A stretch of 64,000 nt of DNA from Advenella mandrilli (GTDB taxonomy: Bacteria; Pseudomonadota; Gammaproteobacteria; Burkholderiales; Burkholderiaceae_B): the NCBI RefSeq assembly GCF_016595155.1, contig NZ_JAENGP010000016.1, positions 1 to 64,000 of the forward strand. The letters are read 5' to 3'. A model generated the notes under the pieces. It ran no database searches, was not told the origin of the DNA, and saw nothing but the letters and a program-made list of their open reading frames with translations. This document shows positions 6,244 to 27,876 of the stretch, in pieces. The position numbers were made by a program, and so were the translations under genes. Positions within the stretch are counted from its first letter, which is position 1. Each line of letters opens with the position of its first letter.

Positions 6244-8160
6244 ATGTCTGAGCAAAAATCGGATAAAGTGGGTCTGAGCCGTCGTTCCTTTCTGGGAACC
6301 GCTGCGCTGACAGGGGCAACGGGTCTGGTTGGTGGCGCACACCTGCCTTCTTTCGCTGCCAAAGATGACAAATCGGGAAAAGGTCTTAAATATGAAGTGG
6401 GTCCGGGTGAACTGGACGAGTATTATGCGTTTAACTCCAGTGGCCAATCAGGGGAAATACGTGTGCTGGGTTTACCTTCCATGCGTGAGCTGGTACGGAT
6501 TCCCGTTTTCAATATGTGCAGTGCAACAGGTTGGGGGCGGACTAATGAAAGTCGTAAAATCCTGAACGAAAACCTGACACCTGCAACCCGGGCATACCTG
6601 GAAAGCCAGAATATGCCGGTGCTGCCCAATGGTGACGCGCATCACCCGCATATGTCATTTACCGACCAGACCTATGATGGCCGGTATGTTTTTATTAATG
6701 ATAAAGCCAATAACCGTGTTGCCCGCATCCGTTGCGATGTGATGAAAACCGACAAGATTCTTGAGGTTCCAAACGTGTCGGGTGTGCACGGCTTGCGCCC
6801 GCAGCGTTACCCGCGTACGGGCTATGTGTTTGCCAATGGTGAGCATATTGTGCCCGTGCCTAATGAAGGCACCTTAATGGATGACCCCCAGAAAAACTTC
6901 TGGGCTGTTTATACCGCCATTGACGGGGACACCATGAAAGTGGCCTGGCAGGTATTGGTGGATGGCAACCTGGATAATGGTGATGCCGACTATCAGGGGA
7001 AATATTCTTTTTCTACCTGCTACAACTCCGAAAAGGGCCTGACCGTTCAGGATGCTTCGGCCAATGAACAGGACTGGTGCGTTGTTTTCAATATCAAGCG
7101 TATTGAAGAGGCCATTAAAAATGGTGACTACAAGGAAATTGGCGGGGTGCCAGTGGTTGATGGCCGTCATGGGTCCAAATACACCCGCTACATTCCCGTG
7201 CCCAACTCGCCGCACGGATGTAACGCGGCACCAGATGGTATGCATATTGTCCTGAACGGCAAGCTTTCCCCAACGGTTACCGTGCTGGATGTTAACAAGC
7301 TGGATGATTTGTTTGACGATAAAATCCAGCCCCGTGACTGCGTGGTTGCCGAGCCAGAACTGGGTCTTGGCCCGCTGCATACCGCGTTTGACGGTCGTGG
7401 CAATGCCTATACTACGCTGTTTATTGACAGCCAGATGGTGAAGTGGAATATTGACCTGGCCAAACGTGCTTTTGCCGGTGAGAAGGTTGATCCCATTATC
7501 CAGAAGCTGGATGTTCATTATCAGCCGGGCCATAACCACACTACCATGGGTGAAACCAAAGAGGCCGATGGCAAGTGGCTGGTTTCATTGAATAAATTTT
7601 CTAAAGACCGTTTCCTTAACGTGGGCCCGCTGAAGCCGGAAAATGACCAGCTGATTGATATTTCAGGCGATGAAATGAAGCTGGTACATGACGGCCCGAG
7701 TTTTGCCGAACCGCATGATATGTGTCTGGTCCATCGTTCCAAGGTGCATCCAAAACATATCTGGGACCGTAATGATCCCATGTGGGAAGACGCCCGTAAA
7801 ATGGCGGAAAAAGACGGAGTAGACCTGGACAAGGCCGCCGATATTATCCGTGATGGCAACAAGGTTCGTGTTTATATGGTTGCCATTGCCCCTGTGTTCA
7901 GTATTCCTTCTTTTGAAGTCAATGAGGGAGATGAAGTCACGGTGGTTGTTACCAATATGGAAACGATCGAGGACCTGACGCACGGCTTTACCCTGGAAGG
8001 TCATGGCATTGCCATGGAAATTGGCCCTCAGGCGACTTCTTCCATCACATTTGTGGCGGGTATTCCTGGTGTGCATTGGTATTATTGCCAGTGGTTCTGC
8101 CATGCCTTACACATGGAAATGGCTGGGCAGATGTATGTCCGTCCCAAGCAGTCGGCCTGA
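6244..8160 (+). CDS. nosZ: Nitrous oxide reductase, clade I (Tat-exported)
   Basis: This periplasmic enzyme reduces N2O to N2. The 638-residue precursor has a twin-arginine signal (SRRSFLG, residues 12-18), which marks the clade I / typical enzyme. CuZ histidines sit in [22 protein letters not shown] and PGHNHTTM across the beta-propeller. The C-terminal cupredoxin domain carries a complete CuA set: C615, W617, C619, H623 and M626. The start has AAGGAG six bases upstream. It is followed closely by nosD, whose first codon lies 13 bases past the stop. All expected copper ligands are present, so it should be functional. Confidence 0.98.
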
Positions 8161-8173
8161 TGTGTTTAATGGC

Positions 8174-9457
8174 ATGAAATTAAACACCAGGCACTTATTG
8201 CCAGCCGGCATTTTGCTGGCCGGCATAAGTTTTGCCCACGGCAGCCAGGCTGCCATCATTCAGCTTGTGCCCACCGATAGCCTGCAACAGGCTATTGAAC
8301 AGGCACAGGCGGGTGATGTGCTGCGTCTGGCAGCAGGAGAATACAGGGGTAATGTTGTTATTGACAAGCCCCTGACCCTGGAGGGGCCTGCCGACCGGAG
8401 CGCGGTGGTGGTGGGCGCAAGAAAGGGGCGTACCGTTTGGGTGCAATCACCCGATGTAGTGGTACGCAGCCTTACGGTCACGCAGTCAGGACTGAGCCTG
8501 CCTGATATGGATGCGGGCGTTTTTCTGGATAAAACCGCTACTAAAGCATTAATTGAAAATAATGATATTTTGAATAATTCGGTGGGTGTTTATGTATGGG
8601 GGGCGCATGAGGCGCTGGTACAGAACAACCGGATTGTTGGTACGACAGAATTGCGCGTGTCAGAACGGGGCAATGGTGTGACCTTATGGAATTCTCCCGG
8701 TGCCAAAATAATCGGCAATGATATTTCCCTGGGGCGTGACGGTATTTTTTCAAATACCAGCAAGCATAACGAGTTTCGAGGCAACCGTTTTAGTGAGCTG
8801 CGTTATGGGGTTCATTATATGTACACCAATGATAGCGAGGTTAGTGAAAACGTCTCAATCGGCAACGGCATTGGCTATGCCATCATGTTTTCCGAACGTT
8901 TGAAGGTTAAAGATAATATTGCCATTGACAGCCGGAGCCAGGGAATTATGATGAACTATGCGAATGGTTCGGATATTTCAGGAAACCTGGTGATCAATGC
9001 TGAAAAATGCGTGTATTTTTACAATGCCAATAATAATGTGATTAACAGTAATCACTTTGAAGAATGCCAGATCGGCATTCATTATACCGGTGCGGCACAG
9101 GGCAACAAAATAAGCAACAATGCCTTTGTCAGCAACCAGAACCAGGTTAAATATGTGGGTTCCCGTTATTACGACTGGTCGGTGGATGGCCGGGGTAACT
9201 TCTGGAGTGATAACAGTGCTTTCGACCTGGATGGTGATGGCATTGCCGATACCGCTTACCGTCCCAACGATGTGATTGACCAGGTGATCTGGCGGGCTCC
9301 CGTTGCCCGCTTACTGTTGAACAGTCCTGCGGTTGGCGTTGTAAGGTGGGCGCAATCACAATTCCCGGCCATTTTGCCCGGTGGGGTGATTGACAGTGCG
9401 CCTGTCATGAAAATGCCCATTACACCTGCGCTGAAAAAATACAGGGAAATGCAATGA
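8174..9457 (+). CDS. nosD: NosD, periplasmic copper-site maturation protein
   Basis: NosD works with the NosFY transporter to build the CuZ site of NosZ. The protein is a right-handed parallel beta-helix of the CASH/NosD type, seen as repeats such as NNVI/NDI/GNLV along residues 80-340. I choose ATG 8174 (427 residues) over the longer frame reaching back into nosZ, because it gives a clean signal peptide (MKLNTRHLLPAGILLAG ... A) and lies just after the nosZ stop. The ribosome site is weak, so coupling to nosZ is likely. Its last codons overlap nosF by four bases. Confidence 0.93.
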   Translation: MKLNTRHLLPAGILLAGISFAHGSQAAIIQLVPTDSLQQAIEQAQAGDVLRLAAGEYRGNVVIDKPLTLEGPADRSAVVVGARKGRTVWVQSPDVVVRSLTVTQSGLSLPDMDAGVFLDKTATKALIENNDILNNSVGVYVWGAHEALVQNNRIVGTTELRVSERGNGVTLWNSPGAKIIGNDISLGRDGIFSNTSKHNEFRGNRFSELRYGVHYMYTNDSEVSENVSIGNGIGYAIMFSERLKVKDNIAIDSRSQGIMMNYANGSDISGNLVINAEKCVYFYNANNNVINSNHFEECQIGIHYTGAAQGNKISNNAFVSNQNQVKYVGSRYYDWSVDGRGNFWSDNSAFDLDGDGIADTAYRPNDVIDQVIWRAPVARLLLNSPAVGVVRWAQSQFPAILPGGVIDSAPVMKMPITPALKKYREMQ

Positions 9458-10362
9458 GTAGCAAATATCATGTTGTCTTGTCAGGTGTCTCCAAGGCATA
9501 TGCAAAGCAGTTTGCCGTTAACAATGTAGATATACAGCTGAAAGCGGGCGAGTGTGTGGCCCTGGCCGGCCATAACGGTGCGGGTAAAAGCACCATTATC
9601 AAGTTGATCCTGGGTCTGATTCACCCTACACAGGGAAAAGTTCAGTTATTGGGACATGATGTATCAAGCCGTAGCGCGGCCCAGATCCGTGGGCAGATTG
9701 GTTATTTACCTGAAACCGTTGCCTTGCACCCCTCTTTGACCGGCGCTGAAACATTGGCTTTTTATGCCAAACTGAAAAAGCAGCCACTGGCGAATAATCC
9801 TGGCTTGTTGTCCCGTGTCGGGATAGCGCAGGCCGCCAAGCGCCGTGTAGGGACTTATTCCAAGGGAATGCGTCAGCGGCTGGCGCTTGCCCAGGCGTTG
9901 CTGGGCAATCCGCAGGTCTTGCTGTTTGATGAGCCCACCACGGGCCTGGACCCGGCCTCCCGGCAAATGTTTTATGAAATTGTGTCAGAGCTACGCAATC
10001 AGGGTTCAACCGTATTACTTAGTACGCATGCATTGGCAGAGCTTGATGGTCAGGCTGACCGTATTATTGTCATGAAAAATGGATCCAAGATTGCCGATGG
10101 CAGCATGTCTGAATTGCGTCAGCAAAGCGGGTTGCCCATCCGGATTCGTATAGCCTTAACACCCGGCTCTGAAAGTGCCGGGAAATTGCCGCCCGTATGG
10201 CGTAAACATAATGAATCTGCTTATGACCTTCATTGTTCCGAACAGGATAAAGTCCAGGCCATATGCAGTCTGGGCCATATCAATGGGATCAATAATATAG
10301 AAATACATACACCCAGCCTGGATGATATGTATGCGCACTTCCTGCGGAGGGAAGATGTATGA
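9454..10362 (+). CDS. nosF: NosF, ABC transporter ATPase
   Basis: The 302-residue ATPase carries Walker A GHNGAGKS near residue 40, the signature YSKGMRQRLALAQ near 134, Walker B VLLFDEPTTGLD near 155 and an H-loop histidine in LLSTHALAE. It pairs with NosY to energise NosD-dependent delivery, probably of a sulfur species, for CuZ assembly. The start overlaps the nosD stop as ATGA, which implies translational coupling. The C-terminal 90 residues are the usual variable regulatory region. Confidence 0.95.
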   Translation: MSSKYHVVLSGVSKAYAKQFAVNNVDIQLKAGECVALAGHNGAGKSTIIKLILGLIHPTQGKVQLLGHDVSSRSAAQIRGQIGYLPETVALHPSLTGAETLAFYAKLKKQPLANNPGLLSRVGIAQAAKRRVGTYSKGMRQRLALAQALLGNPQVLLFDEPTTGLDPASRQMFYEIVSELRNQGSTVLLSTHALAELDGQADRIIVMKNGSKIADGSMSELRQQSGLPIRIRIALTPGSESAGKLPPVWRKHNESAYDLHCSEQDKVQAICSLGHINGINNIEIHTPSLDDMYAHFLRREDV

Positions 10363-18498: not shown

Positions 18499-18603
18499 AC
18501 AATTACAAGATACAAACATGACGGGGCTGGTGAGGACGGCTTGGTCGGTATTTTTTAATTTCCTCTTTTGGAGGAGCCGGTGAATATGCTATAGTCACGC
18601 CCT

Positions 18604-19029
18604 ATGCGAAGCCTTCAACGCCCTCTTCGACATAAAGTTACCGATGCCTGGCAAATTTTATTTTTCCTGGCGGCGCTGTCGTTTTTGTGCCGGGCGCTGA
18701 TTCCTGCCGGATACATGCCCGATTTTTCAGGTGCGCGTGAGGGCAAGTTTTCCATTACCATTTGTACCGCTACCGGCACCAACACCATACTGGTGGACGC
18801 AAACGGGGAGCTTGTTGAGCCATCATCGGGTGACTATCCCGACAATCAGGATTGTGCATTTTGCCTTGTAGCATCGCAAACATTAATGCCTGCCCCGGAA
18901 ATGCCCGCGTTGGCGGTTTTCCTAACATCCCGTCCTGTCTCTTTGCCGCATGCCAATCATGCGCTCCCCCCGCTTCCTGCCCAGGGTCCGCCACTGGGCT
19001 CGCGCGCTCCTCCTTTAAACCTCGGTTAA
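18604..19029 (+). CDS. DUF2946 family protein
   Basis: A 141-residue protein with one N-terminal hydrophobic helix (about 17-33) followed by RALIPAGYMPDF and the SITICTATG motif. A central CAFC pair and a His/Pro-rich tail complete the DUF2946 pattern. The family is uncharacterised but often found beside TonB-dependent receptors and metal-uptake genes. The Cys and His residues suggest metal binding in the periplasm; that is inference. It is separated from the downstream receptor by a terminator-like structure. Confidence 0.7.
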   Translation: MRSLQRPLRHKVTDAWQILFFLAALSFLCRALIPAGYMPDFSGAREGKFSITICTATGTNTILVDANGELVEPSSGDYPDNQDCAFCLVASQTLMPAPEMPALAVFLTSRPVSLPHANHALPPLPAQGPPLGSRAPPLNLG

Positions 19030-19093
19030 GTCTTCGTCTGTGATTGTGTCCGTATCAATCACGCTTTAACGGTAGTTTTTCCGAGGTTTTTTT
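19017..19093 (+). terminator. Nested terminator-like structure between DUF2946 and the TonB receptor
   Basis: AAACCTCGG (19017-19025, within the last DUF2946 codons) pairs perfectly with CCGAGGTTT (19081-19089), which runs into T7. Inside the 55-base loop a second perfect stem, GTGATTG (19040-19046) / CAATCAC (19056-19062), can form. It can act as a terminator, or as an attenuator if the interior responds to a signal. Confidence 0.6.
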
Positions 19094-19189
19094 ATGTTTA
19101 TTTTTCATTCCGGTGCCTGTCTCAGGCGGGCCGTGTCATTGCTTTCTTTTGCGTCTTATTCCCAGGTCATGTTTACGCCTGGACAGTAA
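19094..19189 (+). CDS. Possible 31-residue leader ORF before the TonB receptor
   Basis: ATG 19094 follows GAGG by about eight bases, directly after the T-run of the terminator-like structure. It reads MFIFHSGACLRRAVSLLSF... to TAA at 19187-19189. It could be a regulatory leader peptide, or chance. The rest of the 296-base gap before the receptor holds no other ORF or riboswitch that I can recognise. Confidence 0.15.
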   Translation: MFIFHSGACLRRAVSLLSFASYSQVMFTPGQ

Positions 19190-19325
19190 GCCTTTGCAGG
19201 GGCTGGTGAACCTGTAAGTACATCGCAACAGGCATTCAGTCAGATTTCGTCAAGATCCGGCATCATCCTTGAGTTGCGCCCGGTTTGCGTTACTTATAAA
19301 CATAAATAGATATAAAAATTAACAA

Positions 19326-21284
19326 ATGACAAATTTTAAACCAGTTTTCTTATCACGCTATCGCCTGCCCGTGCAGGCATTTCCTGCGTTGGCAGGTGTC
19401 ATATTGGGTACCGTCTGGGCCAATACCAGCGCAGCCAGTGTTACGCAGCTGGCGCCCATTGTGGTAACGGCATCTGCAAGCGAGCGCTTGTTGGAAGATG
19501 CGCCAGCCAGTGTCACGGTGCTAAGTAGCGAAGAATTGAGCCGTCGGCCAATTTATAATGTGGCCCAGGCGGTAGAAGGAACGCCCGGTGTGAACTTGAG
19601 CAGCGTTGGCATTAATGGCAAGGGTATTTCAATCCGTGGCATGAAAACAGACCATACCCTGGTTCTGTATGATGGCATGCGCATCAACCAGTCGGGGCCG
19701 CTTATTTACGGTTCGGATTTTGAGCACGGATGGATGCCCGCAGAAGCCATTGAGCGTATTGAAATTGTTCGTGGCCCCATGTCTTCGTTATATGGCTCCG
19801 AGGCGCTTGGTGGTGTGGTTAACGTTATATCACGGCGCGCCACCGATGAATGGGTTAACGTCTTTTCTGCCGATGGCGTTTTCCCCCGCAACAGCCGGGG
19901 CGGTGACCGGCACCGTATGGGGGCCTATATTTCAGGCCCCTTGATACAGGACGTGCTTGGCTTGACGGTCTCCGGGCAATATCAACACACACAAGCCCTG
20001 TACGCCCCCGAAAGTGCGACGCCTACGGCCTTTCATGAAACTTCCATGGGGTACCGGAAAGACCTGCTGGGTACGGTGGGTTTAACTTGGACGCCCGATG
20101 ACAGGCAACGCCTGGATGCCACGATGAGTGTCGGTAAAGAAGACCGCTGGCGTCACAGTACCACTTACCGTTCAGACGACAATATCCGCCGGCAGCGCCT
20201 TTCTCTGTCACACACCGGAGACTGGGACTGGGGGAAAAGCGAAATCAAGCTGTACCGTTCCAACCTTAAGCGTGTTAATGACCGGACAGATGGTGGTAGC
20301 ACCGGCCCGCACCAGTTTACCGATAAGGTTGCCAGTGGCATGGTCAGCTTTGAACCTTTGCATGGGCACACGGTGACGTTGGGTGGCGAATTGCGCAAGG
20401 AAATCCTGGAAGATCCTACCGTGAATGCATCCGGCCGGGAAAGTGCCACCCACAAGGCTTTTTTCCTGCAGGATGAAATGATGCTGGGCGAAAACTGGGA
20501 GTTGTTGCTGGGCAGTCGTTTCGACCATCATCCCAATTATGGCTGGCAGACCAGCCCGCGTGCTTATGTGCTGTATCACTTCAATGATGAACTTGTTTTC
20601 AAGGGTGGTGTGGGCAAGGGGTTTCGGGCGCCTACGCTTAAACAGCTGTCGCCAGGTTATCGCGGCTCATGGGGGCGGGGCTCGGAGATATTCGGTAACC
20701 CCGACCTGAAGCCCGAAACCTCGGTGTCGTATGAAGCGGGTTTTGATTATACCGGTGACCGCTGGCAAGCTAATGCCATGCTGTTCCTGAACCAGGTGGA
20801 AGACCTGATTGATACCAACTGTGTTGCCGGGTGTGCCGACCGGAGCAAAACCTATGAGTACGTCAATATAAACAAGGCCCGTATTAGCGGCCTGGAAGTG
20901 GGTTTTGGAGTGGAGCTGCCCTGGCAGCTTCAGCTGAATGCCAACTATACCTATCTGGATGCCGTAGACCGAAGCAGCAAAACGCGTCTGACTGACCGTC
21001 CGCGCCATGTCGCCAATGCCACCCTGAACTGGCAGCCGGCCGATGACTGGGATGCCAGCCTCAGGTGGCAGTATGTCGGTTCCCAGCGCACGACAAGCGC
21101 ATCAGGCTATCAGCCGGCTTATTCAATCCTTTCCCTGTACGGCAGTTACGATGTCAACCGGCATGTGACCCTGCATGCAGGCATCGAAAACCTTACCGAC
21201 AAGCGTCTGGCCGATGAGTCTGCAGACTATGTGCTCAGTGATGAAGGACGTCGCCTGTTTGTTGGCGTGGAAATGAGGTTCTGA
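19326..21284 (+). CDS. TonB-dependent outer-membrane receptor (CirA/FepA-like)
   Basis: A 652-residue receptor. After a long signal sequence, the plug domain starts near residue 40 with APIVVTASASER, a TonB-box-like stretch. It continues with GVNLSSVGINGKGISIRGM and IERIEIVRGPMSSLYGSEALGG. The beta-barrel carries GKGFRAPTLKQLSPGY and NPDLKPETS, and ends in the aromatic terminus VEMRF required for outer-membrane insertion. It resembles catecholate-siderophore/colicin receptors, but the substrate is not known. Only one base separates its stop from the CobN-like gene, so the pair is one transcription unit. There is no clear ribosome site before ATG 19326. Confidence 0.92.
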   Translation: MTNFKPVFLSRYRLPVQAFPALAGVILGTVWANTSAASVTQLAPIVVTASASERLLEDAPASVTVLSSEELSRRPIYNVAQAVEGTPGVNLSSVGINGKGISIRGMKTDHTLVLYDGMRINQSGPLIYGSDFEHGWMPAEAIERIEIVRGPMSSLYGSEALGGVVNVISRRATDEWVNVFSADGVFPRNSRGGDRHRMGAYISGPLIQDVLGLTVSGQYQHTQALYAPESATPTAFHETSMGYRKDLLGTVGLTWTPDDRQRLDATMSVGKEDRWRHSTTYRSDDNIRRQRLSLSHTGDWDWGKSEIKLYRSNLKRVNDRTDGGSTGPHQFTDKVASGMVSFEPLHGHTVTLGGELRKEILEDPTVNASGRESATHKAFFLQDEMMLGENWELLLGSRFDHHPNYGWQTSPRAYVLYHFNDELVFKGGVGKGFRAPTLKQLSPGYRGSWGRGSEIFGNPDLKPETSVSYEAGFDYTGDRWQANAMLFLNQVEDLIDTNCVAGCADRSKTYEYVNINKARISGLEVGFGVELPWQLQLNANYTYLDAVDRSSKTRLTDRPRHVANATLNWQPADDWDASLRWQYVGSQRTTSASGYQPAYSILSLYGSYDVNRHVTLHAGIENLTDKRLADESADYVLSDEGRRLFVGVEMRF

Positions 21285-21285
21285 C

Positions 21286-24200
21286 ATGATGCGTAAACTG
21301 ACTCTTCTTAATCTATGGATATGGTGGTGTGTGGGTGTTGCCGGGCTGGTACCGGCACAGGCTGCGGCCGAAGTTTCTGCTCCGCTTGTCAAGGTGGTCA
21401 CCAACCGGTCGGTGCTGCCGGCCAAGTTTCAGGTGCTGGCACCAATCGCCAAGCGTGCCGGCGTCCGGCTTGAGCATGTGGACGTTGGCACGGCAGGTGC
21501 CCCTGCCGGACAATGGTTGCCGGGCGCCAGTTTGGTTGTCCTGGATACGCCGCGCCCCAGTGCCCGTGCCGAAGTGGACGGTGCGATTGGTCAAAGCCTG
21601 CAAACGGGTGATGTCCCCTGGCTCAGGGTTGGCGGCCGTGTTGAAGACTTTGGCGGCATGACGGCCGAACAGGCCCGGCAATTGTCAGCTTATTACACCA
21701 ACGGCGGGGCCGGTAATTTCAGGCTGTTTTTCCAGGCTGCCAAAGACCTGGCCCAAGGCCGTTCCATTGCGTCGTTGCCAGCTGCCGAACAAGTGCCCGA
21801 GACCGGTTTTTATCATCCGGCCGCCCCGCAAGTATTCGAGTCGCCTGAGCCTTATTTGGCCTGGGCCCGGGCACGCATGCCCCAGGCTGTTGGCCAGCTT
21901 GCTTTCCTGATTCACAATGGGGTGGTTAGTGATATGCAGACGCAGCTTATTGATGCCCTGATTGCCGCATCTGAAGCCAGAAACATCTTGCCTGTTGCCT
22001 TCTGGTATGACAGTAACGACCCCAAGGCATTGACGAAGGTTATCAAGCCGGCCGGTGCCGATGCGATGGTTAATATGCGCATGACGCAAAACAGCGCCGA
22101 GCGGGCTGCCGAACTGGCGCAACTGGACATCCCTGCCATCCAGACCTTGACCTATCGTGAGGGTGATCAGGCGCAATGGCTGGCAGCGCCCAGCGGTGTG
22201 GCACAAAGAGTGGTGCCGATTTTTATGGCCATTCCCGAAACCTGGGGCATGAGCGATCCCATGGTACTGTCTGCCCTGCAGGACGGGGCGGCAGTTCCCA
22301 TGGCCGAACAGGTGGATGGTTTGCTGGATAAACTGCGCAAGTTAATTGAGTTACGCCGCAAGCCTGCCAGCGACAAGCAGCTGGCGCTGATGTTCTGGAA
22401 TTATCCGGCCGGAGAGCGCAATTTTGGCGCCTCACACCTGAATGTCCCGCTTAGTATTGAAAATATTACCCAGGCGCTGAATCAGGCCGGCTATGATGTT
22501 GATCCGGTGGATGAAGCCGGCATGATTGAAAAGGGTCAGGCCATGCTTTCCATGCTGTATCGAAGCAGCCAGCCAGAAGATTTGCTGGCCCGTGACTTGG
22601 CGGCAGTGTTGCCGGTTGCGCAATACCAGGCATGGCTGGACAAACTGCCAGCCGGGCCACGCGAGGGTATGGCGGTCTGGGGGAATCCGGCAGACCATTG
22701 GGCGGTTCGCACGGTAAATGGCGTGCCCGCGTTTGTGATTCCCAGAATGAAGTTGGGCAAGCTGGTTATCATGCCACAAATGCCAAGAGCTGCGCAAATG
22801 GGCAGCCATTATCACGATGAGTCGATGGCGCCCGATCATTTGTATATGGCCGCCTACCTGTGGCTGCAAGCGTCTTTCAGTGCGGATGCCCTGATCCACC
22901 TGGGCACGCATGGCACCCAGGAATGGTTGCCAGGCAAAGACCGGGGGCTTTCCATGCGCGATTATCCCTTTCTGGCGCTGGGGAGTTTGCCTGTTTTTTA
23001 TCCCTATATCCAGGATAACGTGGGTGAGGCGCTGCAAACGCGACGCCGGGGCAGGGCGGTGTCCATCAGTCACCAAACACCACCTTTCGCGCCCGCAGGG
23101 CTTTACGATGAATTGCGTGATATGCACAATCTGGTTGAAGAGTATGAGCAGCTGGACGAAGGGGCCGTGCAGCAGACGGTCATGGAAAAAATCCTGGCCG
23201 CAGCCCGGGATTCCAGCATGATTCAGGATTTGGACTGGGAAGAACGCCAGGCCCGTGACGATTTTTCCGGGTTTTTGCAGGTCTTGCATAACCATTTGCA
23301 TGCGCTGGCCCAAACTGCCATGCCGCTGGGGCTGCACCGTTTTGGCCAACCTGCCTCAGCGGAACACCGGCTGGCCGTGGTCATGCAGCAATTGGGCCAG
23401 CCATTTTATGATGCACTGGGCTTGTCGGACGAACTGTTTGTGGAAGATTTCACGCAGCTGCAGGCCAGTGTGCCGTACCAAACCCTGAACCGTTACCTGC
23501 GTGAGGGGGAAGACATGGCAACGGCCGCACCCGGGCTTCAGGAACATTTATTACGCGCCCTGGAACTGGACGCGGGCCTGGCTGATACCGGTGAAATGGA
23601 AGCATTATTAAGCGGGTTGTCGGGTGGCTTTGTGCTACCCGGGCCGGGTGGTGACCCCATACGCCGTCCGGGTTTGGCCAGCGGCCGTAACCTGTATGCG
23701 CTGGAACCCGATAAATTGCCCACGCCGTCCGCTTATGAAAGCGGGGGTGTGGCACTGATGCAATTGGCAGACACGTATCGCAACGAGAACCAGGGGGCCT
23801 GGCCCAAGCGTCTGGCATTCAGCCTGTGGGCAGGCGAAGCGGTACGCCATCAAGGCATTACCGAAGGGCAGATTTTGCATGCATTGGGCTTAAAACCGGT
23901 GTGGGCGCGCAATGGCCGGATTTCCCGCCTGGACATTATTCCCGCCGCTACCCTGGGCCGGCCGCGTATAGACGTTGTTATCCAGGCAACGGGGGTTTAC
24001 CGGGACCAGTTTGACGGCTTTATGCGCTTGCTTGCCGAGGCCATGAACCAGCTTGCGGAACTGGATGAGCCCGATAACCCGATTGCGGCCAATACACAGC
24101 GGATTACGGACGAGCTGCTGGCAGCAGGCATGCCGGCAGACGAGGCCGTACAGGCTGCCCGTTACCGGATATTCAGCAGTGCACCTGGCAATTACGGCAC

Positions 24201-25176
24201 AGGCCTGCCTGGCATGATGCAGCAATCCACCCAATGGAAAGGGGATGATGAACTGGCCGGGCAGTTCCTGAACCGCATGCAATATGCTTATGGCAGCGAG
24301 GGTTGGGCCATCAAGCCCTCTTCAACCAACCTGCTGGCGGCCCAGTTGCGGGGCACCGATGCGGCGGTCATGTCGCGCACGTCAAATATACATGGCGTGC
24401 TTTCCACCGACCATCCCTTCGAGTTCCTGGGCGGGCTGTCGGTGGCGATTCGCCATCTGGATGGCAAAAGCCCGCCGCTGTATATTTCCGATTTGCGCAA
24501 AAAAGAACCTAAAACCACTTCCATGCAAGCCTTTCTTGCCAATGAAATGCGGGTCAGATACCTGAACCCGCACTGGATAGAAAGCATGCGAAATGAAGGC
24601 TATGCCGGCACGCTGGAGGTGGTGGATACGGTTAATAACCTGTTTGGCTGGCAGGCCGTAGACCCTGCCACGGTGCGACCCGACCAGTGGCAGGCAATCT
24701 TCGATACCTATATTGAAGATACGCGCGAACTGGGCACAAACGAATGGTTTGAGCAGCACAATCCCACTGCCCAGGCACAGGTGCTGGAACGCATGGCCGA
24801 AGCCATTCGCAAGGGTTATTGGGATGCGCCCGAAGCCACCCGGCAGGCGCTGGCCGAGCGCTGGAACGAACTGGAGCAACAGTTTAATGCCACGGCGGGT
24901 GACCCGCTGACACGGACATTCGTGGCGGACATGGCCCAGGGGTTTGGCCTGGCGCAAGCGGCTGCTGAGGCGGATGCCGCAACGCCTGATGCCGCTTCTG
25001 CGGCCGATGCCCAGGCGCAGTCAGCGGTCAGTGGCCAGCTTATGCAGCCAGTGGAAACGGCACCGCCTTTGTTTCCCTGGATGCTGGTTTTTTCACTTGC
25101 CCTGTTGGGGGCGGCCACCTTGTATGGCGGCCTGCGCCAATGGCGTGGGGCCCATACAAGGTCTGCACACGCATAA
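21286..25176 (+). CDS. Exported, membrane-anchored CobN/HmuS-like chelatase-family protein
   Basis: A 1296-residue member of the CobN / magnesium-chelatase H family. Family landmarks are HLGTHGTQEWLPGKD (about residues 539-553), PIRRPGLASGRNLY, the LAFSLW and RIDVVIQATGVYRDQF regions, APGNYGTGLPGMM and NPHWIESMRNEGYAG. Classical CobN is a cytoplasmic cobaltochelatase subunit. This one instead has an N-terminal signal peptide (about 1-28, ending AQAAAE) and a C-terminal transmembrane helix (about 1262-1283) followed by basic residues. The large domain should therefore sit in the periplasm. No CobS/CobT-type ATPase is encoded nearby; an ExbB-like channel and DUF2149 follow instead. Inserting or removing a metal from an imported tetrapyrrole or metallophore is the likely role, by analogy with HmuS-type proteins. 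Confidence 0.85.
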   Translation: MMRKLTLLNLWIWWCVGVAGLVPAQAAAEVSAPLVKVVTNRSVLPAKFQVLAPIAKRAGVRLEHVDVGTAGAPAGQWLPGASLVVLDTPRPSARAEVDGAIGQSLQTGDVPWLRVGGRVEDFGGMTAEQARQLSAYYTNGGAGNFRLFFQAAKDLAQGRSIASLPAAEQVPETGFYHPAAPQVFESPEPYLAWARARMPQAVGQLAFLIHNGVVSDMQTQLIDALIAASEARNILPVAFWYDSNDPKALTKVIKPAGADAMVNMRMTQNSAERAAELAQLDIPAIQTLTYREGDQAQWLAAPSGVAQRVVPIFMAIPETWGMSDPMVLSALQDGAAVPMAEQVDGLLDKLRKLIELRRKPASDKQLALMFWNYPAGERNFGASHLNVPLSIENITQALNQAGYDVDPVDEAGMIEKGQAMLSMLYRSSQPEDLLARDLAAVLPVAQYQAWLDKLPAGPREGMAVWGNPADHWAVRTVNGVPAFVIPRMKLGKLVIMPQMPRAAQMGSHYHDESMAPDHLYMAAYLWLQASFSADALIHLGTHGTQEWLPGKDRGLSMRDYPFLALGSLPVFYPYIQDNVGEALQTRRRGRAVSISHQTPPFAPAGLYDELRDMHNLVEEYEQLDEGAVQQTVMEKILAAARDSSMIQDLDWEERQARDDFSGFLQVLHNHLHALAQTAMPLGLHRFGQPASAEHRLAVVMQQLGQPFYDALGLSDELFVEDFTQLQASVPYQTLNRYLREGEDMATAAPGLQEHLLRALELDAGLADTGEMEALLSGLSGGFVLPGPGGDPIRRPGLASGRNLYALEPDKLPTPSAYESGGVALMQLADTYRNENQGAWPKRLAFSLWAGEAVRHQGITEGQILHALGLKPVWARNGRISRLDIIPAATLGRPRIDVVIQATGVYRDQFDGFMRLLAEAMNQLAELDEPDNPIAANTQRITDELLAAGMPADEAVQAARYRIFSSAPGNYGTGLPGMMQQSTQWKGDDELAGQFLNRMQYAYGSEGWAIKPSSTNLLAAQLRGTDAAVMSRTSNIHGVLSTDHPFEFLGGLSVAIRHLDGKSPPLYISDLRKKEPKTTSMQAFLANEMRVRYLNPHWIESMRNEGYAGTLEVVDTVNNLFGWQAVDPATVRPDQWQAIFDTYIEDTRELGTNEWFEQHNPTAQAQVLERMAEAIRKGYWDAPEATRQALAERWNELEQQFNATAGDPLTRTFVADMAQGFGLAQAAAEADAATPDAASAADAQAQSAVSGQLMQPVETAPPLFPWMLVFSLALLGAATLYGGLRQWRGAHTRSAHA

Positions 25177-25193
25177 TTTTTTTGGAGTATTAA

Positions 25194-25682
25194 ATGAACT
25201 TTCTTGAATCGGGCCTGTATGAACTTGCCGGGCTTTTCCTTGCACCCGTACTTGTAATGATTTTGCTTTGCCTGTTGTATTCCTTTGCCTCGCTGGGCGG
25301 TTTTGCCGTTGAGTGGTGGCAACGGCGCCAGCAACGCGCGCAATCGGTGCTGCACCAGCAGCATGCCAGGCATGGCGGCACTGCCGATGACTTGGAACTA
25401 TGGATTATGCACCGCCTGGAGCTGTTGCGTATTGTATCGCGCACGGCACCCATGCTGGGTTTGATTGCCACCATGATACCCATGGGCCCGGCCTTGCTGG
25501 CGCTTGGCGGGGGCAATGCGGCTGGTGTGGGCGAGAACCTGGTCACGGCTTTTTCAGCGGTTATTCTGGCATTGATTGCGGCCAGCGTTACGTTTTCCAT
25601 CTTGACGGTACGGCGACGCTGGCTGTTGCAGGAACTGCGTGAGCTGGAACGCCAGGGCTTGCTTGTGGCACAGGAGGCCTGA
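25194..25682 (+). CDS. MotA/TolQ/ExbB-type proton channel protein
   Basis: The 162-residue protein has three predicted helices: about 12-35, a central one in the segment starting TAPMLGLIATMIPMGPALLAL, and about 115-135. The APMLGL...MIPMG and AFSAVILALIAASVTF segments match the TolQ/ExbB pore helices. Such channels convert proton flow into mechanical work on a partner. It is about 80 residues shorter than typical ExbB and lacks a nearby ExbD or TonB. TTGGAG precedes ATG 25194, 17 bases after the CobN-like stop, so it is co-transcribed and probably powers that protein. Confidence 0.82.
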   Translation: MNFLESGLYELAGLFLAPVLVMILLCLLYSFASLGGFAVEWWQRRQQRAQSVLHQQHARHGGTADDLELWIMHRLELLRIVSRTAPMLGLIATMIPMGPALLALGGGNAAGVGENLVTAFSAVILALIAASVTFSILTVRRRWLLQELRELERQGLLVAQEA

Positions 25683-25684
25683 AC

Positions 25685-26005
25685 ATGCGATTTCTGGAAT
25701 CTGATGATGCAGATGATCCCATCCTTTCGGTGGTTAACATGATTGACCTGTTTCTGGTGGTGATAGGGATTTTAATGGTGGTGGTTGCCCTTAACCCGCT
25801 TAATCCGTACGCCGCCCAGGATGTGATTGTGATTGAAAACCCCGGCAAGGCCAATATGACCATGACCATTAAAGAGGGTGAAGAGCTGACCCGTTATGAG
25901 TCTAATGGTGAAATCGGGCAGGGGCAGGGCATCAAGGCCGGCATTACCTACCGGCTGGATGACGGGCGCATGATTTATGTGCCCGAAACGGCTGTTGCCC
26001 AGTAA
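25685..26005 (+). CDS. DUF2149 family protein
   Basis: A 106-residue protein with a conserved acidic N-terminus (LESDDADDPILSVVNMIDLF), one transmembrane helix (about 20-40) and a small C-terminal domain ending in DDGRMIYVPE. The topology, a short N-terminus plus one helix plus a periplasmic domain, is that of ExbD/TolR, so it may be the ExbD-like partner of the preceding channel. DUF2149 genes are recurrent neighbours of CobN-like and ExbB-like genes. A strong AGGAGG overlaps the end of the ExbB-like gene. Confidence 0.8.
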   Translation: MRFLESDDADDPILSVVNMIDLFLVVIGILMVVVALNPLNPYAAQDVIVIENPGKANMTMTIKEGEELTRYESNGEIGQGQGIKAGITYRLDDGRMIYVPETAVAQ

Positions 26006-26072: not shown

Positions 26073-26828
26073 TTAAACGGCGGTGTAGCCGCCATCAACC
26101 AGCAGGCTGGTGCCGGTAATGAAAGAGGCATCGTCACTGGCCAGGAACAAAACGGCGGCAGACACTTCTTTGGGTTCACCCATGCGGCCAATCGGGTGCA
26201 GGGCGGCAATACCGGCACGGATTTCCGGTGTAATGGTTTCGGTTAAGGGGGTGTTGATATACCCGGGGCAAACCATGTTGCAGCGGATACCTTCCTTGGC
26301 ATGAGAGGTGCCTACCATTTGGGTGAGCATTTTGACGCCCCCTTTAGCGGCAGAGTAGGCGGTTAGTTTGTCGCGGGCTACCATGCTGTGGATAGACCCA
26401 TTGTTGACAATGGCACCGCCCGTGCCCTGTTTTTTAAATTGCTGGACGGCATATTTATCGCAGTAAAAAACACCATTCAGGTTGATGTCGATAATTCTCT
26501 GCCAGTCTTTGCTGTCCAGTTCATCGACATTGGCTTCGATATTGATGCCGGCATTGGCAAAAATGACATCCACCTTGCCGTATTGTTCCACCGCTTGCTC
26601 AAACAGGTTCTTGACTTCCTCTTCATTGGAAACATCGGCCTTGACAAAAAAAGCCTGCCCACCCTGGGCGGTGATTTTGTTAACCACGGCCTGCCCTTGT
26701 TCGATGGAAATATCGGAAACAATCACTTTTGCACCTTCAGCCGCAAAAGCCATGGCGGCAGATTCGCCCAGGCCACTGGCTGCACCGGTAACAATGACTG
26801 CTTTATTGGTGAAACGGTTATAACTCAT
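26073..26828 (-). CDS. SDR-family oxidoreductase
   Basis: A 251-residue classical short-chain dehydrogenase: TGAASGLG cofactor loop near residue 15, NAGI near 91, catalytic Ser in NNGSIHSM and YSAAKGG near 157, and the PGYINTPL and LLVDGGYTAV segments. An acidic residue at the end of beta-2 (SDIS) points to NAD preference. GGAG lies nine bases upstream of ATG 26828. The substrate is unknown. It is divergent from the siderophore-interacting protein gene and shares its intergenic region. Confidence 0.85.
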   Translation of the reverse strand: MSYNRFTNKAVIVTGAASGLGESAAMAFAAEGAKVIVSDISIEQGQAVVNKITAQGGQAFFVKADVSNEEEVKNLFEQAVEQYGKVDVIFANAGINIEANVDELDSKDWQRIIDINLNGVFYCDKYAVQQFKKQGTGGAIVNNGSIHSMVARDKLTAYSAAKGGVKMLTQMVGTSHAKEGIRCNMVCPGYINTPLTETITPEIRAGIAALHPIGRMGEPKEVSAAVLFLASDDASFITGTSLLVDGGYTAV

Positions 26829-26978
26829 TGCAAATCTCCATTAAATGAAAGAACTGTCTGGTTGACAGTATTATTTAAGTATAAACGATGCGTTTTTCAG
26901 GAAGAAAAATAGCCTTCGGTATTTGGCAGGCAAGCGTGAAGGTACTTTTTAACACCTTGTTTTTTCAAGGGATTAATT

Positions 26979-26997
26979 AATAATGATTCTCATTTGT
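26979..26997. promoter_or_regulatory. Fur box upstream of the siderophore-interacting protein gene
   Basis: AATAATGATTCTCATTTGT matches 13 of 19 positions of the GATAATGAT-A-ATCATTATC Fur consensus, with the core AATGATtcTCATT best kept. A -10-like TATTAT lies at 27002-27007, so bound Fur would cover the promoter. The site is 61 bp upstream of ATG 27058. Confidence 0.65.
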
Positions 26998-27057
26998 GAT
27001 ATATTATCAGTTGACAATAGTAAATAACCCTATACGGGCTACTGAATGAGATTGTAA

Positions 27058-27876
27058 ATGACAGAAATTACCCTTGATACACAGAAGCAGCAACACCCCA
27101 TTAAAATGCGTTTGCTGCAAGTTAAACGAATTACTTCGTTAAGCCCGTCAATACGTCGCATCACCTTAAGTGGTGATGACTTGAACGGTTTTCTTTCCGC
27201 CTCTTTTGAGGATCATATTAAATTATTTTTGCCCGACTCCCCCGGTGAAAAGCCCCATATGCCGGTGTTGGGGGAAAAAGGGATGGAATTTGCGCCAAAT
27301 CGCCCCAAGCCGCTTACCCGCGACTATACACCACGCCGCTATAATCCCGACACCAACGAATTGGATATTGACTTCGTGTTAAACCATGAAGGGCCGGCCA
27401 CCCGCTGGGCAAGCCAGGCAGAGGAGGGGCATTACCTGGGCGTGGCCGGGCCGCGCGGTTCATTTGTGATTCCTGCCGGTTTTGACTGGCACTTGCTGAT
27501 GGGTGATGAAACCGCCATTCCGGCGATTGCGCGCAGGCTTGAAGAATTGCCGGCGTCGTGCAAGGCGATGGTTATTATCAAGATTGCCAGTGAGGACAGT
27601 AAAATACCGTTGCAGGGCCAATGCGATTTTGAGGTTCGCTGGGTACAGCAAGACAGTGATTTTGCCAATAAAAATGAAGCTGAACTGCTGGCTGCCTGTT
27701 TGGGCGATATTGTTTTGCCTGCCGGAGAAGGCTATGTATGGGCGGCAGGCGAGTACAGCGATATTAAGGCCTTGCGTGAATACATGATTGATCAGTTCAA
27801 AATTGATAAAAAGCGTATTCGTGCCAGTAGTTACTGGCGTAAATCACAGGTTGCCACGCATACGAATTTTGAGTGA
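27058..27876 (+). CDS. Siderophore-interacting protein (NAD(P)H-dependent ferric-chelate reductase, ViuB/YqjH type)
   Basis: These cytoplasmic flavoproteins release iron from imported ferric siderophores by reduction. The 272-residue chain has an N-terminal FAD-binding barrel with RDYTPRRYN near residue 87 and the FVLNHEGPATRWA and GVAGPRGSF segments. A C-terminal pyridine-nucleotide domain includes GDETAIPAI and VWAAGEYSDI and ends in RASSYWR, all diagnostic of the family. The gene is preceded by a Fur box and followed by a hairpin, so it is an iron-regulated single-gene unit. No siderophore synthesis genes are present in the window. Confidence 0.92.
   Translation: MTEITLDTQKQQHPIKMRLLQVKRITSLSPSIRRITLSGDDLNGFLSASFEDHIKLFLPDSPGEKPHMPVLGEKGMEFAPNRPKPLTRDYTPRRYNPDTNELDIDFVLNHEGPATRWASQAEEGHYLGVAGPRGSFVIPAGFDWHLLMGDETAIPAIARRLEELPASCKAMVIIKIASEDSKIPLQGQCDFEVRWVQQDSDFANKNEAELLAACLGDIVLPAGEGYVWAAGEYSDIKALREYMIDQFKIDKKRIRASSYWRKSQVATHTNFE

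Follow-up and report, generated by a model that had tools for sequence, protein, structure and literature searches.

A copper-leader operon of Advenella mandrilli encodes a predicted exported CobN-like protein, a putative metal dechelatase that may be served by an ExbB-like/DUF2149 pair

Class I chelatases such as CobNST and ChlHID are cytosolic, metal-inserting enzymes driven by AAA+ ATPases. How a relative of CobN could work outside the cytoplasm is the question raised by an operon of Advenella mandrilli, located in the window analyzed here (positions 1 to 64,000 of contig NZ_JAENGP010000016.1, 64,000 nucleotides in all). The operon encodes a DUF2946 protein, a TonB-dependent receptor, a CobN-like protein, an ExbB-like protein, and a DUF2149 protein. 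We tentatively read it as a copper-regulated representative of a widespread group of periplasmic CobN-like dechelatase systems, in which the ExbB-like/DUF2149 pair would act as a dedicated, ion-driven partner of the CobN-like protein.

A preliminary description of this locus had reported five co-directional genes, the last four nearly contiguous. All five reading frames were found open on the + strand with Pfam matches for each product (Table 1), and the gaps between the receptor, CobN-like, ExbB-like, and DUF2149 genes were 1, 17, and 2 bases. The receptor was matched best in NCBIfam by the CirA model (423.3 bits), below the CirA cut-off of 745.

Table 1. Features of the operon and of its products, with positions in the window.
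Feature	Position	Strand	Evidence
DUF2946 protein, CruR-type copper-responsive leader ORF	18604..19029	+	Pfam PF11162, 32.9 bits (cut-off 23.7)
Hairpin with T-run, terminator/attenuator candidate	19017..19093	+	Fold -24.3 kcal/mol, z -5.25, 0/200 shuffles as stable
TonB-dependent outer-membrane receptor, CirA-like	19326..21284	+	Pfam TonB_dep_Rec 214 bits, Plug 96.2 bits
CobN-like protein, predicted exported and membrane-anchored, proposed metal dechelatase	21286..25176	+	Pfam CobN, 982.9 bits (cut-off 24.5)
Met266, aligned with HmuS heme ligand His254	22081..22083	+	Alignment
His542, counterpart of HmuS catalytic His538 (GTHG)	22909..22911	+	Alignment
His1043 to Glu1046, counterparts of HmuS His1209 and Glu1212 (LSTDHPFEFLGG)	24412..24423	+	Alignments
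Predicted C-terminal membrane anchor of the CobN-like protein, residues 1262-1280	25069..25125	+	Hydropathy; R/H-rich basic tail after it
ExbB-like/MotA-family channel subunit, three membrane segments	25194..25682	+	Pfam PF01618, 28.9 bits (cut-off 22.9)
DUF2149 protein, one membrane helix and a small outer domain	25685..26005	+	Pfam PF09919, 89.7 bits (cut-off 27.1)

Export and C-terminal anchoring of the CobN-like protein, as claimed in the preliminary description, agreed with hydropathy, from which all topologies given here were predicted. A hydrophobic stretch at residues 5-23 is followed by ...AQAAAE, and a second stretch lies at the C-terminus before a basic tail; hence the roughly 1200 residues of the body are expected on the periplasmic side. 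Among 114 CobN-like proteins of more than 1200 residues from the studied loci, an N-terminal hydrophobic stretch was found within the first 300 residues in 105 and began within the first 60 in 97, and a C-terminal one was found in 110. No match to CobS or CobT was returned by profile searches of the whole genome, which extends the earlier statement that no such motor is encoded nearby.

The top PDB sequence match of the CobN-like protein was HmuS (E 1.6e-125), a published heme dechelatase of Bacteroidota whose activity has been linked to NADH and to the membrane (PMC12583661). A predicted model of residues 28-1215 (pTM 0.78) matched CobN over 1054 residues and HmuS over 1123, with 24% identity to HmuS across the 1123 structurally aligned residues. 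The catalytic residues of HmuS were retained: HLGTHG, which contains His542, corresponds to the HmuS motif HFG(T/A)HG with Leu in place of Phe, and LSTDHPFEFLGG corresponds to LSLDHxxEFMGG with two further positions deviating. Solved cobaltochelatases carry Asp/Gln at this second active-site pair (LDSDDYYQFEGG), where the CobN-like protein has His/Glu. Judged by alignment, the active site is HmuS-like (His/His/Glu) and unlike that of a cobaltochelatase, and since the HmuS-type site is retained, metal removal appears likelier than insertion, as the preliminary description had proposed.

The CobN-like gene was found to be tightly linked to its partners. In a survey of the family, DUF2149 was sought in 151 genomes and found in 28, and CobN, sought in the same 151, was found in 27: 26 encoded both, two encoded DUF2149 only (G129 and G138), one encoded CobN only (G114, an assembly of 250 contigs that is 85% complete), and 122 encoded neither (Fisher p = 9e-26, with genomes treated as independent). 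At the genus level, 16 genera were shared between the 17 and 17 positive ones among 43 (p = 1e-9). The preliminary description had made its proposal depend on co-occurrence of the genes beyond chance, which these counts bear out, and the neighborhood survey that it had suggested showed CobN and ExbB-like genes adjoining DUF2149 at 44 of 47 sites in other Pseudomonadota genomes (exceptions L079, L081, and L082). Similarly, among the best 80 of 587 confirmed candidates in a set seeded by the ExbB-like protein, mostly from Bacteroidota, DUF2149 was adjacent in 78 and CobN lay within 2 kb of the ExbB-like gene in 76, some of the exceptions being cut by contig ends; by title, these 80 came from Bacteroidota, Burkholderiales, and one Omnitrophota, with no archaea. 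Gene order was not fixed across loci, CobN being first or last, a variation that speaks for functional linkage over simple common inheritance. Fusions were absent from the scanned loci, where no reading frame matched two of the four profiles.

In the ExbB-like protein, Thr93 of helix 2 was invariant among 114 aligned sequences. The single helix of the DUF2149 protein lies at residues 16-34, with Asn18 conserved in 97% and Asp21 in 98% of 112 sequences, and a single helix with a conserved Asp near its start is also the arrangement of ExbD/TolR. From this shared layout, the DUF2149 protein may work like ExbD, with no claim that it is ExbD; the wording "ExbD-like" goes no further because no family profile calls it ExbD and its structure model is poor.

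The first gene of the operon, separated from the receptor gene by 296 bases, points to copper. In the CruR system, a leader peptide senses copper through a CXXC motif and stalls ribosomes at RAPP, and the downstream genes are on when copper is scarce (PMC9426467). The window leader shares with CruR the DUF2946 domain, the position as first gene before a long intergenic region, and both motifs, with CAFC (codons at 18853-18864) and RAPP (codons at 19003-19014) separated by 46 residues, close to the typical distance of about 45. It ends four residues after RAPP, compared with a spacing of 45 and three terminal residues in CruR of Bordetella pertussis. The candidate hairpin starts two bases past the second Pro codon of RAPP, so that its 5' arm overlaps the last DUF2946 codons, and its sequence was retained in three related genomes (L069 2493-2582, L070 15905-15994, and L071 15907-15996). 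Covariation among the four sequences was not above shuffles, which leaves stability and conservation as the support for the structure; a terminator scan with a loop limit of 8 did not list it. By analogy with CruR, a ribosome stalled at RAPP would cover the 5' arm of the hairpin, a possible intrinsic-terminator version of CruR control, and the arrangement suggests attenuation through an intrinsic terminator instead of Rho.

Four DUF2946 leaders were identified in the genome, the one on contig 11 scoring just below the family cut-off. Downstream of the other three lie cytochrome bd genes in one case, a TonB copper receptor gene (786.8 bits, cut-off 472.45) in another, and SCO1 together with two PCuAC-domain genes in the third, each a sensible set to express when copper is short. 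These three leaders match the CruR motifs less exactly (CLFC and SQAPP in one, CPYG and CPFS, each with RAPP, in the others), so an imperfect CXXC also occurs ahead of copper genes. At L222 (892-4105, in the same genome), the CLFC/SQAPP leader stands directly ahead of the cytochrome bd oxidase genes, which are apparently under a copper-sensing leader; cytochrome bd is an oxidase without copper.

A second, complete receptor-CobN-ExbB-like-DUF2149 operon was found on contig 3, with identities of 36, 40, 58, and 69% to the respective window proteins. No DUF2946 gene lies in front of it, and a Zur-type box (TGATACGTTATAACA, two palindrome mismatches) is located 59 bases upstream of its receptor gene (p 0.035; all Zur tests used an approximate dinucleotide shuffle). 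Across the tested loci, a Zur-type box at p <= 0.02 was present in 22 of 47, with L088 and L091 among the 22 having weak sites. Both this second copy and the nature of the DUF2946 gene as a CruR-type copper leader had been missed in the preliminary description. The two CobN-like proteins differ in composition, with Met/His counts in the compared part of 42/25 in the window protein and 27/51 in the paralogue (Fisher p 0.0009), and at the position of the HmuS heme ligand His254, which is Met in the window protein and three sisters (4/4) and His in all 18 other subgroup proteins, including the paralogue. A change from His to Met fits a softer metal such as Cu(I), but the change is a single evolutionary event in a single clade; Met enrichment is only suggestive as a sign of copper.

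Comparison with described systems identified HmuS as the nearest characterized system and PA1922-PA1925 of Pseudomonas aeruginosa as the nearest described operon. The hmu operon encodes the same parts (PMC10434189), as the preliminary description had stated, and HmuS/hmuYRSTUV (PDB 9d26 and 9p4s) shares the exported, anchored CobN fold, the catalytic His/His/Glu, the receptor, and the ExbB-like and DUF2149 partners. P. gingivalis HmuS expressed in E. coli may also sit in the inner membrane and face the periplasm (PMC13227078). The window operon differs in lacking HmuY and HmuT genes and in a leader that points to copper rather than iron. Its CobN-like protein lacks the methionine-rich domain IV insertion, having 131 residues (638-768) where HmuS has 298 (635-932), and the heme-ligand pair Met79/His254, which is replaced by Pro and Met in this protein and its three sisters, although the alignment at Met79 is uncertain as the head region of the model has low confidence.

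PA1922-PA1925 has the same gene types and order, by literature annotation rather than sequence comparison, and the literature confirms its response to zinc limitation, as named in the preliminary description, adds regulation by Zur, and leaves its role open (PMC4542158, PMC8531726); unlike it, the window copy has no Zur box and carries a CruR-type leader. The BtuS family, a third CobN type predicted to act in metalloporphyrin salvage (Rodionov 2003, cited in PMC6460266), also includes periplasmic CobN-like proteins, but neither a motor nor a copper link is described for it in the accessible part of that paper. The cruR-bfrG/crtA-bp2921 operon of B. pertussis likewise has a DUF2946 leader with CXXC and RAPP before a TonB receptor, but it continues with a PepSY_TM protein and Rho-dependent termination, whereas the window operon has the CobN-like, ExbB-like, and DUF2149 genes and a terminator-like hairpin. 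Taken with the lack of partners, the His/Glu pair further separates the CobN-like protein from CobNST.

In the proposed mechanism, which extends CruR control to this operon, ribosomes would stall on the RAPP of the DUF2946 leader when copper is scarce and mask the hairpin, so that the operon is read through; in the presence of copper, the stall would be released and the operon turned off. A metal chelate would enter the periplasm through the receptor; a copper complex is the likeliest candidate, and it could be a metallated tetrapyrrole. The chelate would then be bound by the anchored CobN-like protein, which carries Met266 at the site of the heme-ligating His of HmuS, and the metal may be removed in the body cavity through His542, His1043, and Glu1046, in the manner of heme demetallation by HmuS. 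The CobN-like protein would be cycled by the ExbB-like/DUF2149 pair, acting as a small ion-driven motor or stator of the inner membrane, a role that falls to ATP-driven CobST or ChlID in cytosolic relatives, and the freed copper would be used in the periplasm. Here we infer the energy coupling, the use of protons, the copper substrate, the tetrapyrrole ligand, the direction of the reaction, and the metal.

Whether the pair serves the CobN-like protein is the point on which the most serious competing explanation turns. It holds that the ExbB-like/DUF2149 pair energizes the outer-membrane receptor while the CobN-like protein works without energy coupling, which we consider rather unlikely. The authors of the HmuS study describe HmuU/HmuV as powering the receptor and not HmuS (PMC12583661), a receptor-energizing role has been suggested for PA1924, and in 38 of 47 loci a receptor gene is found no more than 1.5 kb from the ExbB-like gene or from CobN. 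The authors of the P. gingivalis study, in turn, note that HmuT, HmuU, and HmuV may affect activity (PMC13227078). However, the genome already encodes two ExbD proteins and three further MotA_ExbB proteins, and its seven Plug receptors compare with only two CobN-like/ExbB-like/DUF2149 trios. No TonB is encoded among the five window genes, and in L050, L051, and L094 the trio is present with no receptor match within roughly 15-18 kb of sequence. A plasmid of Trichlorobacter lovleyi shows the order receptor, DUF2162, ExbB-like, DUF2149, CobN, ExbB, ExbD, TonB, and second receptor; its authors did not find CobS/CobT and called the role of CobN unknown (PMC3403914). A similar doubling was observed in L083, where ExbB, ExbD, and TonB (Pfam-checked) lie in the same gene run as CobN, ExbB-like, and DUF2149. 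With a separate TonB set in both runs, the pair would be redundant as receptor power. Additionally, family searches of Methanosarcina acetivorans found CobN, DUF2149, and MotA_ExbB with neither ExbD nor a receptor Plug, an argument from family presence alone; in the control set, the two further archaea that carry CobN had neither DUF2149 nor MotA_ExbB. A paper on Methanosarcina barkeri lists two BtuS, and ExbB, DUF2149, and DUF2162 are not listed there. Because of the separate ExbB-ExbD-TonB sets in two runs, the archaeon without ExbD or Plug, and the ExbD and MotA_ExbB genes elsewhere in the genome, the CobN-like protein is a likelier client of the pair than the receptor is. This evidence on the client of the pair favors the CobN-like protein and proves no energy coupling; a proton-powered periplasmic (de)chelatase is plausible, though unproven, and better supported than receptor powering.

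Several observations weigh against the copper-regulated, ion-driven dechelatase, and some of them lend weight to other explanations. Purified HmuS acts with NADH and no added HmuU/HmuV (PMC12583661), and no experimental work on energy coupling was found in the literature. Polar pore residues in helices 2 and 3 are a feature of the ExbB/TolQ/MotA family; the ExbB-like protein has Thr93 in helix 2, but its helix 3 carries Ala122/Val123 at a site that is Thr-Thr in about three quarters of its relatives. The hhalign match between the DUF2149 helix and ExbD was weak (probability 17%, E 0.0014, 20 columns, helix only) and weaker still in an earlier comparison with only two ExbD sequences (probability 0.9). 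The ExbD profile PF02472 matched none of 19 DUF2149 members, the window protein is not among the two ExbD matches of the genome, the structure model of DUF2149 has a pLDDT of 64, and a search of its profile against solved structures gave nothing convincing (best E 0.21, non-ExbD). As for copper, the leader is the sole pointer inside the operon, and the evidence comes from a single clade of four with L069 as its outlier, where CTFG replaces CXXC and the CobN-like protein shows no drop in His (34 Met, 42 His). This loss of the second Cys would suit a zinc system like PA1922-PA1925 and the paralogue, in which the DUF2946 leader is a remnant or another sensor, as would the tree, where the window copy is nested inside a subgroup rich in Zur-type loci (10 of 17 tested, p <= 0.02). 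Such a system is improbable given that the Zur-type palindrome was at chance level upstream of both DUF2946 (p 0.17) and the receptor gene (p 0.815) at the window copy, that CXXC-46-RAPP is intact there, and that the protein carries the Met266 swap with more Met and less His than the paralogue, though other members vary (L069 is still rich in His, and 30-31 Met occur in L090/L091). The CobN-like protein might also be a non-catalytic, chelate-binding chaperone or transporter part, a role left open by the P. gingivalis authors (PMC13227078) and compatible with a Bacteroides fragilis btuS1 btuS2 double mutant that still releases protoporphyrin (PMC6460266). The retention of the catalytic His/His/Glu makes this doubtful, as the His538Ala change abolishes conversion by HmuS (PMC12583661). 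Finally, a vitamin B12 cobaltochelatase, as annotated, is suggested by the NCBIfam equivalog NF004644 (named CobN), which matches at 1717.5 bits (cut-off 1248), and by relatives in cobalamin clusters. This is highly improbable for a protein that is predicted to be exported, lacks CobS/CobT matches in its genome, and carries His/Glu at the pair that is Asp/Gln in solved CobN and Asp/Gln or Asp/Asp in relatives from most cobalamin clusters.

With slightly more reserve than for the operon itself, the copper-regulated dechelatase may be one case of a broader class of periplasmic metal (de)chelatases powered by the membrane potential. In this class, the ExbB-like/DUF2149 pair would be the dedicated stator of exported CobN-like proteins, replacing the AAA+ motors of CobNST/ChlHID. 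There would be an iron subclass (hmu), a zinc one (Zur clusters), a copper one (the window operon), and others for cobalt/corrinoid or nickel (cobalamin and hydrogenase clusters), and this genome would hold the copper and zinc versions. The active site may follow the metal, with exceptions. The metal contexts of related clusters are diverse: a Zur-like gene, below cut-off, directly follows DUF2149 in L054; ZnuA, NicO, and DUF1007 genes (Pfam-checked) lie beside the L075 cluster; FeoB is near an Omnitrophota locus; nikR adjoins the Azospirillum cluster L186, where the active site is His/Glu; and some clusters carry CbiZ, CbiK, or cobalamin genes. Among relatives in cobalamin clusters, L083, L185, and L092-L095 have Asp/Gln or Asp/Asp, and the Bacteroides loci L128, L145, and L149, located by CbiK/CbiC, have His/Glu. 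L052 has Asp/Gln despite a Zur-type box. A clear tracking of the metal by the active site was therefore rejected as a rule, leaving a trend with exceptions (His/Glu in L128, L145, L149, and L186, and Asp/Gln in L052).

What this analysis adds above all is that a single genome holds both a copper-leader and a Zur-box version of a system whose iron representative has been published as a dechelatase. The open-access literature, with most subscription journals outside the search, was found neither to link CobN-like proteins to copper leaders nor to propose the ExbB-like/DUF2149 pair as their motor. CobN had no occurrences in two CruR-related papers, one of them PMC9426467, PA1922 and CobN terms had none in the zinc paper PMC11481552, and a single search of open-access literature for a tetrapyrrole zincophore or chalkophore gave nothing decisive. 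The earlier statement that a periplasmic proton-powered chelatase is not an established textbook system is outdated in that a dechelatase of this kind, HmuS, is now published, although its activity has been linked to NADH and the membrane, and HmuU/HmuV are assigned to the receptor (PMC12583661). If the proposal is true, the ExbB/MotA stator family gains a further job in powering an enzyme that pulls metal from a chelate, which would account for the function of large CobN-like proteins beyond the ATP-containing cytoplasm, assign a role to DUF2149, a family mentioned in five papers of the open-access library searched, and explain operons of the PA1922-PA1925 type. The two versions in this genome also constitute a natural experiment on metal selectivity, as their CobN-like proteins are 40% identical and differ at a known heme-ligand position.

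Further variation was observed among the related clusters. In L188, a plasmid of Runella slithyformis, genes for a receptor, a weakly NicO-like membrane protein, an ExbB-like protein, DUF2149, and CobN lie within a hypABF...hypCDE hydrogenase-maturation run, and this hypABCDEF context suggests a nickel version of the system. In L083, a CbiZ (adenosylcobinamide amidohydrolase) domain fused to a periplasmic-binding domain (7993-10065) lies between DUF2149 and CobN, and the locus was read as a corrinoid-salvage version with its own ExbB-ExbD-TonB. Gln/Asn, Met, and Ala replace the catalytic His, His, and Glu in L072-L078 and L089, where a Zur-type box at p <= 0.005 was found in six of eight loci and ZnuA-like, DUF1007, and NicO genes lie near several (Pfam-checked in L075); their CobN-like proteins may be binding proteins or enzymes of different chemistry. 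Burkholderiales-type clusters (L053, L098, L099, and L100, and also L055 and L096; four in the tree) fell inside the Bacteroidota HmuS branch, retaining His/His/Glu with Arg at the Met79 position. The neighbors of L098 include ZnuA, ABC-3, CobW, and FUR-family genes, and these Burkholderiales-type clusters represent a possible switch from heme to zinc.

Downstream of the operon, at 26073-27876, are genes for a short-chain dehydrogenase (- strand) and a siderophore-interacting FAD protein (+ strand), whose tie to the operon is not evident. An Rfam scan of the window at the gathering score returned no cobalamin riboswitch and no other element. At the upstream end, an extended -10-like sequence (TGCTATAGT, 18587-18595) lies 8 bases before the ATG of DUF2946, with similar sequences in L070 and L071; it was called by eye and was not listed by a promoter scan. 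Given its closeness to the ATG, the DUF2946 mRNA could be leaderless.

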